From the NCBI RefSeq assembly GCF_003390885.1, contig NZ_QMEL01000001.1, positions 186,001 to 250,000 of the forward strand: 64,000 nucleotides of DNA, written 5' to 3'. The translations under genes were made by a program, and so were the position numbers. This DNA comes from Pelagibacterium sediminicola. Lineage in GTDB: Bacteria; Pseudomonadota; Alphaproteobacteria; Rhizobiales; Devosiaceae. The first letter of the stretch is position 1. Each line of letters starts with the position of its first letter. The notes beneath the pieces are model-generated. The model made no database searches. It saw only the letters and a list, made by a program, of their open reading frames with translations, and was not told where the DNA came from. Positions 35,825 through 38,739 of the stretch are shown one piece after another.

Positions 35825-35844
35825 AAAACCCCGATCAGGGTTTT
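35825..35844 (-). terminator. Terminator at the end of the glycosyltransferase gene
   Basis: AAAACCC and GGGTTTT pair around a 6-nt loop, with the T-run in the descending arm on the minus strand. The glycosyltransferase stop TAA (35845-35843) overlaps its base. Confidence 0.6.
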
Positions 35845-36691
35845 ATCGCTGCCTGAGCAGCGGCTCGATATGGTCCTCGAACAGCGAAGCCGGTTTTGCC
35901 GGGTCGGGGGCAAAACCGCGTTCGGCGGCGAGCGAAAGCTCCAAAAACCGGTCGACGCCCGAAAACGCCCCCTCATAGGGTTCGCGGTAATAGCCCGAGG
36001 CCAGCCGGTCGCGCAAAAGGGTCTTGCTGGCGATCATGTTTTCGGCGACGTCGGGGGCGTTGGACTGGGAAAGCGGCATCTTGACGTAATCGTGAAGCGG
36101 CGTGCCGAAATGGTAGCAGGCCGGGATCGTCTCAAACAGACGCAGGAGAAAATCGAGGTCCGCCATCCAGATCATGGGCGGATCGAAGCGCGGATCGGCG
36201 CGCCGGCGGTCGTAGACCAGCATCGAATCGCCGGAAAAATTGGTGAACTTGTAGTCGGACGGCGTCAGCAGCCGGTCCCCTCCCGCCCCCACCCGGCGCA
36301 GAACCTTGCCGTCCGGCAACGCGATGTTGAGCGCGCTCGATGCCAGTCCGTGGGCGATGACGGCGGGCATCATCGTTTCGAGCTTCCGGGGCACAAAGCG
36401 GTCGTCGGCATCGAGCAGGGCCGCATAGCGATAGCGCGATTTCCCGATCCCGATGTTGCGGGCCGGCGAAGCCCCGCCCGCGATTGCACCGCTCGCGGTA
36501 AAGACAAGGCGCGGATCGGCGATTCCCTCCCGGCCCAGCACCGCCTCGTAATCGGTGTCGTCATCGGCGACGATGATGAGCTCGAACGCCTTGTAGGTCT
36601 GGTCGAGAACCGATTGCACGGCCCAGCCGATCGTTGCCTGCGCCCCATAAGCGGGCATGACGATGGAGACGGGTTCGGCGGCTTGTGTCAT
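35843..36691 (-). CDS. Family 2 glycosyltransferase
   Basis: A 282-residue cytosolic glycosyltransferase of the GT-A fold. The start VSIVMPAYGAQATI, the nucleotide-binding acidic residues in LIIVADDDTD, the metal-binding DXD-like ALLDADDRF and MIWMADLDFLLRLFE fit GT2. No membrane helices are seen. Sugar donor and acceptor are unknown, and no polysaccharide genes lie nearby. ATG 36691 is chosen because it begins just before the fold; ATG 36739 would put a sigma-32-type promoter inside the gene. Neither has a good Shine-Dalgarno site. Confidence 0.8.
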   Translation of the reverse strand: MTQAAEPVSIVMPAYGAQATIGWAVQSVLDQTYKAFELIIVADDDTDYEAVLGREGIADPRLVFTASGAIAGGASPARNIGIGKSRYRYAALLDADDRFVPRKLETMMPAVIAHGLASSALNIALPDGKVLRRVGAGGDRLLTPSDYKFTNFSGDSMLVYDRRRADPRFDPPMIWMADLDFLLRLFETIPACYHFGTPLHDYVKMPLSQSNAPDVAENMIASKTLLRDRLASGYYREPYEGAFSGVDRFLELSLAAERGFAPDPAKPASLFEDHIEPLLRQR

Positions 36692-36708
36692 GGCGGGGCA
36701 GGGGTTCA

Positions 36709-36736
36709 CTTGAACGTTGGCGTCCTGAACCCATAT
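36709..36736 (+). promoter_or_regulatory. Sigma-32 (RpoH) type promoter of hsp20
   Basis: CTTGAA (36709-36714), a 14-bp spacer, then ACCCATAT (36729-36736). This matches the heat-shock consensus CTTGAA-N13-15-CCCCATNT at 13 of 14 positions. The predicted start near 36744 gives a leader of about 71 nt before the hsp20 ATG. Confidence 0.72.
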
Positions 36737-36743
36737 CATAGCC

Positions 36744-36814
36744 AGACCATCGCGGTGCTGAGAAGTCGGGCCCGGTGGCACGTTGCTTGATCATCAAGGA
36801 CAAAGACCGACGAA
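36744..36814 (+). promoter_or_regulatory. ROSE-like RNA thermometer in the hsp20 leader
   Basis: The last hairpin places TTGCT (36783-36787) against the Shine-Dalgarno-like AGGA (36797-36800): T84-A00, G85-G99, C86-G98, T87-A97, T88-A96, G89-C95 with the loop ATCAT. The G-G pair opposite the ribosome site is the diagnostic ROSE feature. An upstream pairing GTGC (36755-36758) with GCAC (36778-36781) gives a second hairpin. ROSE elements control small heat-shock genes in rhizobia. The 14-nt gap from AGGA to the ATG is longer than usual, which lowers confidence. Confidence 0.58.
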
Positions 36815-37237
36815 ATGTCCCGCGTATCGCTGTTTTCCGCACCGTTCCTGCTGGGGTTCGACGCGTTCGAGGAACGCTTCGACCGGCTGGCCAAGGCCAC
36901 CGAAGGGTATCCCCCTTACAATATCGAACGCACAGCCGTTGAGGGCGAGGGCGAGCGTTATTTCATCGCCATCGCCGTTGCCGGGTTCGCGCGTAACGAT
37001 CTGGAAGTGATTGCGGAGGATAATCAGCTCATCGTGCGGGGTCGGCAGACCGAGGATGGTGCGCGCCAGTACCTGCACCGCGGCATTGCCGCGCGACAGT
37101 TCCAGCGCACATTCCTTCTTGCCGACGGCATGCGGGTGGAAGGCGCCGAGCTTAAAAACGGCTTGCTTGCCATCACCGTGTACCGGCCTGTCACAAAGCC
37201 CGTGGCGCGCCGGATCGACATCACGTCGATCGAATAG
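36815..37237 (+). CDS. Small heat-shock protein, Hsp20/IbpA type
   Basis: A 140-residue class-A small heat-shock chaperone that holds unfolding proteins. The N terminus MSRVSLFSAPFLLGFDAFEE, the entry PPYNIERT, the alpha-crystallin core (about residues 35-125) with FIAIAVAGFARNDLEV and the A-x-x-x-n-G-L motif ELKNGLLAITV are typical. Expression is probably heat-controlled twice, by an RpoH promoter and a ROSE-like leader. A DUF1150 gene follows 13 bases later, a frequent pairing in Hyphomicrobiales. Confidence 0.9.
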   Translation: MSRVSLFSAPFLLGFDAFEERFDRLAKATEGYPPYNIERTAVEGEGERYFIAIAVAGFARNDLEVIAEDNQLIVRGRQTEDGARQYLHRGIAARQFQRTFLLADGMRVEGAELKNGLLAITVYRPVTKPVARRIDITSIE

Positions 37238-37250
37238 AAAGGTATGCGTT

Positions 37251-37550
37251 ATGAACAAGGCCAATGAAAAACGCGCGTTCACCGATGCCCCCGGGCACGC
37301 GGCCGAACCGCTCAAGATCCTGACGCCGGCTGAATTTGCGGCGCTGGGCGCGGGAGATATCGTCTTCTGGCGTCAGATGCGGGCGGGCGAGCTTGCCCAT
37401 TTCATCCCCCAGGCGGGCCTTGCCCCGACCGAGCAGGTGCTCGAGTTGCTGATGAGCGCCGATGGCGCGCCGGTACTGATCGCGGACAGCCGCGAGGCGA
37501 TCCTCGACTGGATCGACGGGCACGAAGTGAGCCTGGCAACGCTACATTAG
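37251..37550 (+). CDS. DUF1150 family protein
   Basis: A 99-residue protein of unknown function. It shows the family segments LTPAEFAALG, DIVFWRQMRAGEL and a C-terminal ILIADSREAILDW-like stretch (here VLIADSREAILDWIDG). The ATG at 37251 is 13 bases after the hsp20 stop, so it should share the heat-shock transcript. The longer frame from 37011 overlaps hsp20 and is rejected. Confidence 0.8.
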   Translation: MNKANEKRAFTDAPGHAAEPLKILTPAEFAALGAGDIVFWRQMRAGELAHFIPQAGLAPTEQVLELLMSADGAPVLIADSREAILDWIDGHEVSLATLH

Positions 37551-37609: not shown

Positions 37610-38074
37610 TCAGGCGGCGTTCGCCTCGATCGGGGTCACCAGAATATCGCGCAGCTTTGCCTCGTCCTTGGTGGTGCGGAGGCGATCGACCACGCCTTCG
37701 GCGCGCAAGAGGCGCGCCACGCGGCTCAGGGCCTTGAGGTGGTCGGCGCCCGACCCTTCGGGGGCAAGCAGCATCACGACGAGATCGACCGGCTGGTCGT
37801 CCACCGCATCGAAATCGATGGGTTGGGACAGACGGGCAAAGACCGCCGTGACCCCGGCAAGACCCTTGATCTTGCCGTGGGGGATGGCGATGCCGCTGCC
37901 CAGCCCGGTCGAACCGAGCTGCTCGCGATTGGCCAGGGTCTCGAAGATCACCGCCGTGTCGATACCGGTCAGCTCGGACGCCTTTTCGGCCAGAAGCTGG
38001 AGGAGCTGGCGTTTGCTCGCGACTTTCGCGCAGGGAACGATCGCGTCCTGCGACACAATGTCAGCAAGTTCCAT
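37610..38074 (-). CDS. ptsN: PtsN, nitrogen-regulatory enzyme IIA
   Basis: A 154-residue EIIA-Ntr protein, the output domain of the PTS-Ntr phosphorelay that tunes potassium, nitrogen and phosphate responses. The phospho-accepting histidine is in GIAIPHGKIKG. It follows hpf on the same strand after a 95-bp gap. In many proteobacteria both genes lie next to rpoN; here rpoN is about 17 kb away. Confidence 0.93.
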   Translation of the reverse strand: MELADIVSQDAIVPCAKVASKRQLLQLLAEKASELTGIDTAVIFETLANREQLGSTGLGSGIAIPHGKIKGLAGVTAVFARLSQPIDFDAVDDQPVDLVVMLLAPEGSGADHLKALSRVARLLRAEGVVDRLRTTKDEAKLRDILVTPIEANAA

Positions 38075-38169: not shown

Positions 38170-38739
38170 TCAATTTGAAGAGAGCGATGGATCAATCCAT
38201 CCAATGTTTCCGTCAGCGCGGCGGTAAACCACATTCATGCCCCCATGTCCAGCATGTCGGAACACAATTACATCAGCTCCGGTGAGGTCGATCTCCATGA
38301 CCGCATCCCCCACGCTCATGGTTCTCAGGCTTTCGGTGGATTCGGCGATCACCGGGGGCGCGAAATCCTCGTCGATTTCCTCGGTGCCCTGGGGGGCGGC
38401 AAGGACATAGGCGGCATAGTCGCCCTCATTGCCATTGACGTTCCTGCGGTGATTCTTGAGCTTGCGCTTGTACCGGCGCAGGCGCTTTTCGATATGACCG
38501 GTCATGGCCTCGTAAGCGGCGGTCGCATCGTTTGCCGAAGCGCTCGCCTGGAGGATCACGCCGGTATCGAGGTGGACCTGGCAATCGGCGCGGAACCCGA
38601 TACCCTCTGGCTCGAGGGTAAGGTGCCCGTTATAGCCGCCGTCAAAATACTTCCCCACCATCGCATCGAAATAATCGACCGCCTTGCCGCGCAGCGATTC
38701 GCCGACATCCATATTCTTTCCAGAGACTCGAAGGGCCAT
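38170..38739 (-). CDS. hpf: Ribosome hibernation promoting factor (long HPF)
   Basis: A 189-residue long-form HPF that dimerises idle ribosomes. The N-terminal domain (about residues 1-100) has the beta-alpha-beta fold with basic YKRKLKNHRRN near its end; the C-terminal domain (about 130-189) carries the dimerisation part with DLTGADVIVFRHAGHGGMNVVYRR. GGGAGG lies ahead of the ATG at 38739. The 223-bp gap to irr holds no other gene. Confidence 0.93.
   Translation of the reverse strand: MALRVSGKNMDVGESLRGKAVDYFDAMVGKYFDGGYNGHLTLEPEGIGFRADCQVHLDTGVILQASASANDATAAYEAMTGHIEKRLRRYKRKLKNHRRNVNGNEGDYAAYVLAAPQGTEEIDEDFAPPVIAESTESLRTMSVGDAVMEIDLTGADVIVFRHAGHGGMNVVYRRADGNIGWIDPSLSSN

Follow-up and report, generated by a model that had tools for sequence, protein, structure and literature searches.

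A putative short two-hairpin ROSE-like RNA thermometer behind an RpoH-type promoter at the hsp20-DUF1150 locus of Pelagibacterium sediminicola

The leader of the small heat-shock gene hsp20 of Pelagibacterium sediminicola is very probably a short ROSE-like RNA thermometer built of two hairpins, whose transcription would start at an RpoH (sigma32) promoter. The locus lies in a 64,000-nucleotide stretch of contig NZ_QMEL01000001.1 (positions 186,001 to 250,000 of the forward strand; hereafter the window, in whose numbering positions are given). The sequence elements are present and conserved, both hairpins covary among homologues, and the position of the element is specific to hsp20. A ROSE-like element at this place had been proposed in an initial annotation, and is here supported by conservation and covariation across the Hyphomicrobiales. 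The leader is thus viewed as a well-supported, and unsurprising, member of the known ROSE thermometer class.

The hsp20-DUF1150 locus and its promoter

The controlled gene, hsp20 (36815-37237, plus strand), encodes an IbpA-type small heat-shock protein (PF00011, E 2.9e-16), orthologues of which were recovered by protein search in 127 of 136 genomes of the family. It is separated by a gap (36692-36814) from a divergent family 2 glycosyltransferase on the minus strand (35843-36691, assuming that translation starts at its ATG). The frame of the latter remains open up to a GTG at 36781 (35843-36781, minus strand), so that an upstream start would overlap the hsp20 leader antisense; initiation at the ATG at 36691 is more likely. 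Downstream, and only 13 nt from the end of hsp20, follows a DUF1150 gene (37251-37550, plus strand; PF06620, E 9.1e-22). A search of this 13-nt gap found no terminator-like site, and DUF1150 also follows hsp20 at 27 of the 28 top-scoring loci that the blind search described below located in other genomes; the two genes are probably co-transcribed. The ATG of DUF1150 is preceded by an AAAGG of its own, hence only transcription, and not translational thermo-control, is likely to be common to both genes. The proposal of the initial annotation, that temperature controls both genes at both levels, therefore likely holds for shared transcription and overreaches as regards the translation of DUF1150. 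Inspection of translations further revealed two minus-strand genes convergent to the pair, one PtsN-like (PTS IIA; 37610-38074) and one resembling a ribosome hibernation factor (HPF; 38170-38739).

The gap contains a CTTGAA -35 element (36709-36714, plus strand) and, 15 nt further on, a CCCATAT -10 element (36730-36736, plus strand), both assigned from a pattern scan, conservation and the published RpoH1 consensus. The arrangement CTTGAA-N15-CCCATAT departs by a single mismatch from the alphaproteobacterial consensus, given for rhizobial RpoH1 as CTTGAA-N15-16-CCTATAT (PMC4843759). An alternative reading of the -10 element, ACCCATAT at 36729-36736, is placed 14 nt from CTTGAA, which is the spacing of the initial annotation; its promoter coordinates proved right. 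The pattern CTTGAA-N14-17-CCATAT occurs once in the window, at this very site, and in none of 100 shuffles. In the 3.24-Mb genome it is found four times, against once for a reversed control pattern, and reading frames inspected downstream of the other three sites held no obvious heat-shock gene, so the promoter pattern alone is neither proof nor specific. Conservation adds to the case: CTTG stands 17 or 18 nt from CATAT, equivalent to the N15-16 spacing of RpoH promoters, in 97 of 109 orthologous upstream regions. The genome moreover encodes rpoH (368 bits, above the cut-off of the model), as a member of an RpoH regulon would demand alongside its promoter. Aggregated, these findings support a sigma32-type promoter before hsp20, the transcription of which would then be sigma32-dependent. 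Transcription would begin near 36743-36744, some 7 nt past the -10 element, and given that start the leader extends about 71 nt to the hsp20 ATG at 36815, in agreement with the length originally suggested.

A second hsp20 resides elsewhere in the genome (L031, G000:C1:25804-27100, outside the window). It likewise has a CTTGAA promoter, followed by CUUGCUUU...CAGGAGA before the ATG, and its leader is longer, resembling classical ROSE; RF00435 matches the counterpart in a relative (L123) at 71.3 bits.

Two hairpins in the leader and their covariation

The ROSE-like element as a whole spans 36747-36802 (plus strand), as delimited by two covariance models, R1 and R2. Hairpin I (36747-36778, plus strand), predicted in the minimum-energy fold and backed by covariation in homologues, joins CCAUCG to CGGUGG and GGUGC to GGGCC, leaving one bulged C, and has a core in which UGC faces GGG through a bulged G or a G-G pair. 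This hairpin was absent from the initial annotation. Hairpin II (36782-36801, plus strand; G-UUGCU-UGA-UCA-UCA-AGGA-C) is the presumed thermosensing hairpin, in which the anti-Shine-Dalgarno UUGCU (36783-36787) is opposite the Shine-Dalgarno (SD) AGGA (36797-36800), with G36785 facing G36799; its two arms read G-U-[U]-G-C-U-U-G-A and U-C-A-A-G-G-A-C. The last hairpin is thereby present just as had been claimed, G-G pair included, and its core is kept in orthologous leaders.

Folding of the single sequence is uninformative in itself: z-scores of -0.84 for 36743-36817 and +0.22 for 36745-36830 are ordinary and do not prove structure. In a competing fold, UUGCUU binds to downstream AAG/CGACG; at 37 °C this fold is favoured over hairpins I and II by 1.2 kcal/mol when calculated from nearest-neighbour parameters lacking a special G-G term. 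In nearest-neighbour folding with this energy model, likewise without a G-G term, predicted accessibility of the SD in the window shows no increase with temperature. Hairpin II has moreover lost its outermost pair in the window, where C and A stand unpaired, and the SD is separated from the hsp20 ATG by 14 nt (36801-36814), which is unusually long. The competing fold, the lost pair and the long spacing would all fit a thermometer that is degenerate in this species, with the promoter alone regulating and the leader persisting as a vestige whose SD is poorly placed. We nevertheless regard this as quite unlikely: hairpin I pairs along its full length, interrupted by a one-nucleotide bulge, hairpin II keeps its UUGCU/AGGA core, and an AGGA-AUG spacing of 11-14 nt is common to the whole genus, as opposed to 7-9 nt in 72 of the 109 orthologous leaders.

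We then turned to comparative evidence, using 109 orthologous leaders that protein searches of 61 and 136 genomes had yielded. U(U/C)GCU lies within 16 nt of AGGA in 102 of these. Pairs were counted in columns anchored on the motif cores alone, in the 85 unique sequences carrying the motif. The core of hairpin II (G facing G, C-G and U-A) is invariant in all 85, and its outermost pair covaries between C-G, U-A, G-U and G-C, with standard pairs in 87% of sequences against a shuffle maximum of 66%. In hairpin I, standard pairs at outer positions 3-8 amount to 55-82% of the same sequences, compared to 36-51% in shuffles, and a single position can show as many as six pair types. A separate alignment of 59 homologues revealed changes on both sides in seven of the nine hairpin I pairs. 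Evaluated for the named two-hairpin structure, this alignment contains 112 double-change cells (50.7 in shuffles) and has a covariation score of 0.253 (0.126 in shuffles), and none of 500 shuffles reached either the count or the score. Sliding the partners by one column reduced pairing from 82% to 49%. The shuffles ignore relatedness, which the slid control retains, and the covariation counts lend support but should not be read as exact probabilities. RNAalifold on a MAFFT alignment recovered hairpin II only, because hairpin I is one column off in some rows; the anchored count and the pair counts on the named structure were used to handle this shift.

Both hairpins hence covary above shuffles in the leaders of hsp20 orthologues, Devosiaceae included, and this strong, beyond-chance comparative evidence argues that they are real RNA structure. 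The reverse notion, that the conserved blocks are DNA elements such as an operator or promoter parts, has a precedent in the first ROSE, which was initially taken for a transcription-factor binding site (PMC4166951). Compensatory changes in hairpin I and in the closing pair of hairpin II would be unexpected for a DNA-protein site, and we consider the notion exceedingly improbable here.

Relation to known ROSE families and distribution in the order

ROSE elements are recognized by a U(U/C)GCU whose helix with the SD is imperfect and contains non-canonical pairs (PMC3669281, PMC11342760). The leader conforms: its 3'-proximal hairpin sets U(U/C)GCU against the SD, the SD helix contains a non-canonical G (G36785), there are two hairpins where the class has two to four, and the 5' UTR belongs to a small heat-shock gene, the PF00011 frame beginning 14 nt after AGGA. 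A fourU thermometer was considered and rejected, as UUGCU, and no UUUU, is opposite AGGA.

Rfam, its ROSE models included, returned no match in the window even at E values up to 10, so the family assignment foreseen in the initial annotation did not materialize. This negative outcome reflects a limit of sensitivity, because sub-threshold ROSE or ROSE_3 matches sit at the homologous place in nine relatives. Such matches score 26.4 bits (L010), 23.1 (L011), 21.3 (L021), 24.7 (L036) and 24.4 (L045), with further ones in L156, L159 and L163, while the best orthologous leader (L082) reaches 28.5 bits (E 0.007 over all families) compared to a gathering score of 43. The gathering score of ROSE RF00435 or RF02523 was attained by no orthologous leader tested. 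When RF02523 was run across 41 relatives, four weak matches and none above the cut-off were obtained, of which that in G043 is before a paralogous hsp20, and no match preceded an orthologue of the window hsp20. The leader element is thus ROSE-like by its defining features, and beyond the reach of the curated Rfam models.

Our own covariance models were more sensitive. With R1, which was built from the orthologous leaders and has the window in its training set, the site scores 37.8 bits and is the best in the genome, the next one being at 18.1. With R2, from which the genus was left out, it scores 29.6 bits (E 1.9e-7), again ranking first in both the window and the genome, where the runner-up has 22.4, and all 12 other leaders of the genus were found. 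When 297 genomes of the order were searched blindly, the best matches comprised 29 loci from other genomes; some of the nearest leaders belonged to the training set, and most of those outside the family did not. The best 28 lie directly before hsp20, which the weakest of the 29 (E 2.8e-5) does not. Among the best 80 named loci, the promoter pattern recurs in 78 when a looser -10 element is allowed, and U(U/C)GCU is close to AGGA in 59. The two motifs face each other in Mesorhizobium, Brucella, Agrobacterium, Rhizobium, Sinorhizobium and Hoeflea, and in Bradyrhizobium and several Xanthobacteraceae the SD is AGGGC with UCGCU retained. Congruent with these counts, conservation of the promoter and the ROSE-like element before hsp20 is supported across the Hyphomicrobiales, as judged from sequence comparison.

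Deviating forms were also observed. Bosea and Microvirga (L212, L219, L222, L227, L235, L244 and L247, upstream of position 1001) display UGCC/GCGCC facing GGGC in the last hairpin, replacing U(U/C)GCU; G facing G is retained, and the same core occurs in hairpin I elsewhere. In Maritalea-like genomes (L024, L026, L079, L084 and L086), the block is found 41-48 nt before the hsp20 ATG, or AAGAAC takes the place of AAGGAC and a short ORF follows, hence the ROSE-like element seems displaced or decayed in that genus.

The closest anatomy is that of the short two-hairpin ROSE leaders of Pseudomonas ibpA, which are sigma32-dependent, with a leader of 61-62 nt and two hairpins (Krajewski 2013, PMC3669281). 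Shared with these are the sigma32-type promoter, the two hairpins, the SD in hairpin II opposed by U(U/C)GCU and the small heat-shock gene downstream, in the present case as predicted from sequence; what differs is the bacterial class, the SD-AUG distance of 14 nt and the DUF1150 gene that follows. ROSE_3 (RF02523) resembles the leader in its model consensus, with GAUGCC/GGGUC in the first hairpin and cGCU/GgAG in the second, and matches the orthologous place in four Devosiaceae leaders below threshold (21-28 bits), yet 43 is never reached and the window is without match. Classical rhizobial ROSE (RF00435; Bradyrhizobium hspA ROSE1) likewise precedes small heat-shock genes and pairs U(U/C)GCU to the SD with a G-G, but is longer, with three to four hairpins, and it is the other hsp20 copy of these genomes that resembles this type. 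In Mesorhizobium loti and Sinorhizobium meliloti, ROSE has been reported or predicted before class A sHsp genes, some of them RpoH-dependent (PMC3989490, PMC2873474); we compare these as a gene class, and not as established orthologues of the DUF1150-linked hsp20. Since the M. loti class A genes have already been reported with ROSE (PMC3989490), orthologues of the window hsp20 may have been noted before. A literature search found no publication linking Devosia with RNA thermometers.

Proposed temperature control and possible Hsp20 self-repression

We envisage that heat shock would raise RpoH activity and thereby the amount of hsp20-DUF1150 mRNA. At growth temperature, hairpin II would hold the SD AGGA in an imperfect helix with UUGCU, with G facing G, and ribosome binding would be weak; on warming, hairpin II would melt and free the SD, permitting hsp20 translation, a mechanism taken over from ROSE elements that have been characterised. 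Hairpin I, in turn, probably assists folding: being stable, it would prevent mispairing of hairpin II and stay folded on warming, by analogy to the Pseudomonas ibpA leader, where probing shows hairpin I remaining folded (PMC3669281).

Instead of, or besides, a thermometer, the leader could be a protein-binding autoregulatory site, where an Hsp20 oligomer binds the 5' UTR and blocks its own translation until stress draws Hsp20 onto unfolded proteins. E. coli IbpA indeed represses its own translation via the ibpA 5' UTR, for which R93 and Y34 are needed, both described as conserved in alphaproteobacterial IbpA (PMC10474464). Also, hairpin I is conserved more than SD masking requires. In the Hsp20 of the window, we read R94 of GIAARQF and Y32 of GYPPYN as the likely counterparts of R93 and Y34; both residues are invariant in our alignment. 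On the other hand, the conserved U(U/C)GCU against AGGA is exactly what a thermometer predicts, and in E. coli self-repression acts on top of a thermometer, so the two are compatible. We therefore assign the autoregulatory site a modest chance, well short of even, and Hsp20 self-repression may act on the same leader.

A related idea is that hairpin I is itself regulatory, either as a second heat-labile module or as a docking site for Hsp20 self-repression. Hairpin I shares the core of YGC facing GGG with the thermosensing hairpin and has been conserved throughout the order; we nonetheless hold this role to be unlikely. If it were true, the leader would integrate temperature and the level of free chaperone in alphaproteobacteria. 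In either case, the role of the first hairpin is now made testable.

For annotation, the curated RNA models miss the hsp20-DUF1150 leader, and the alignment and covariance model presented here could improve its detection. With the two-hairpin ROSE-like thermometer as the preferred reading, the short layout of sigma32 promoter and ROSE element that was characterised in Pseudomonas now also covers an hsp20-DUF1150 locus that is conserved throughout the Hyphomicrobiales.
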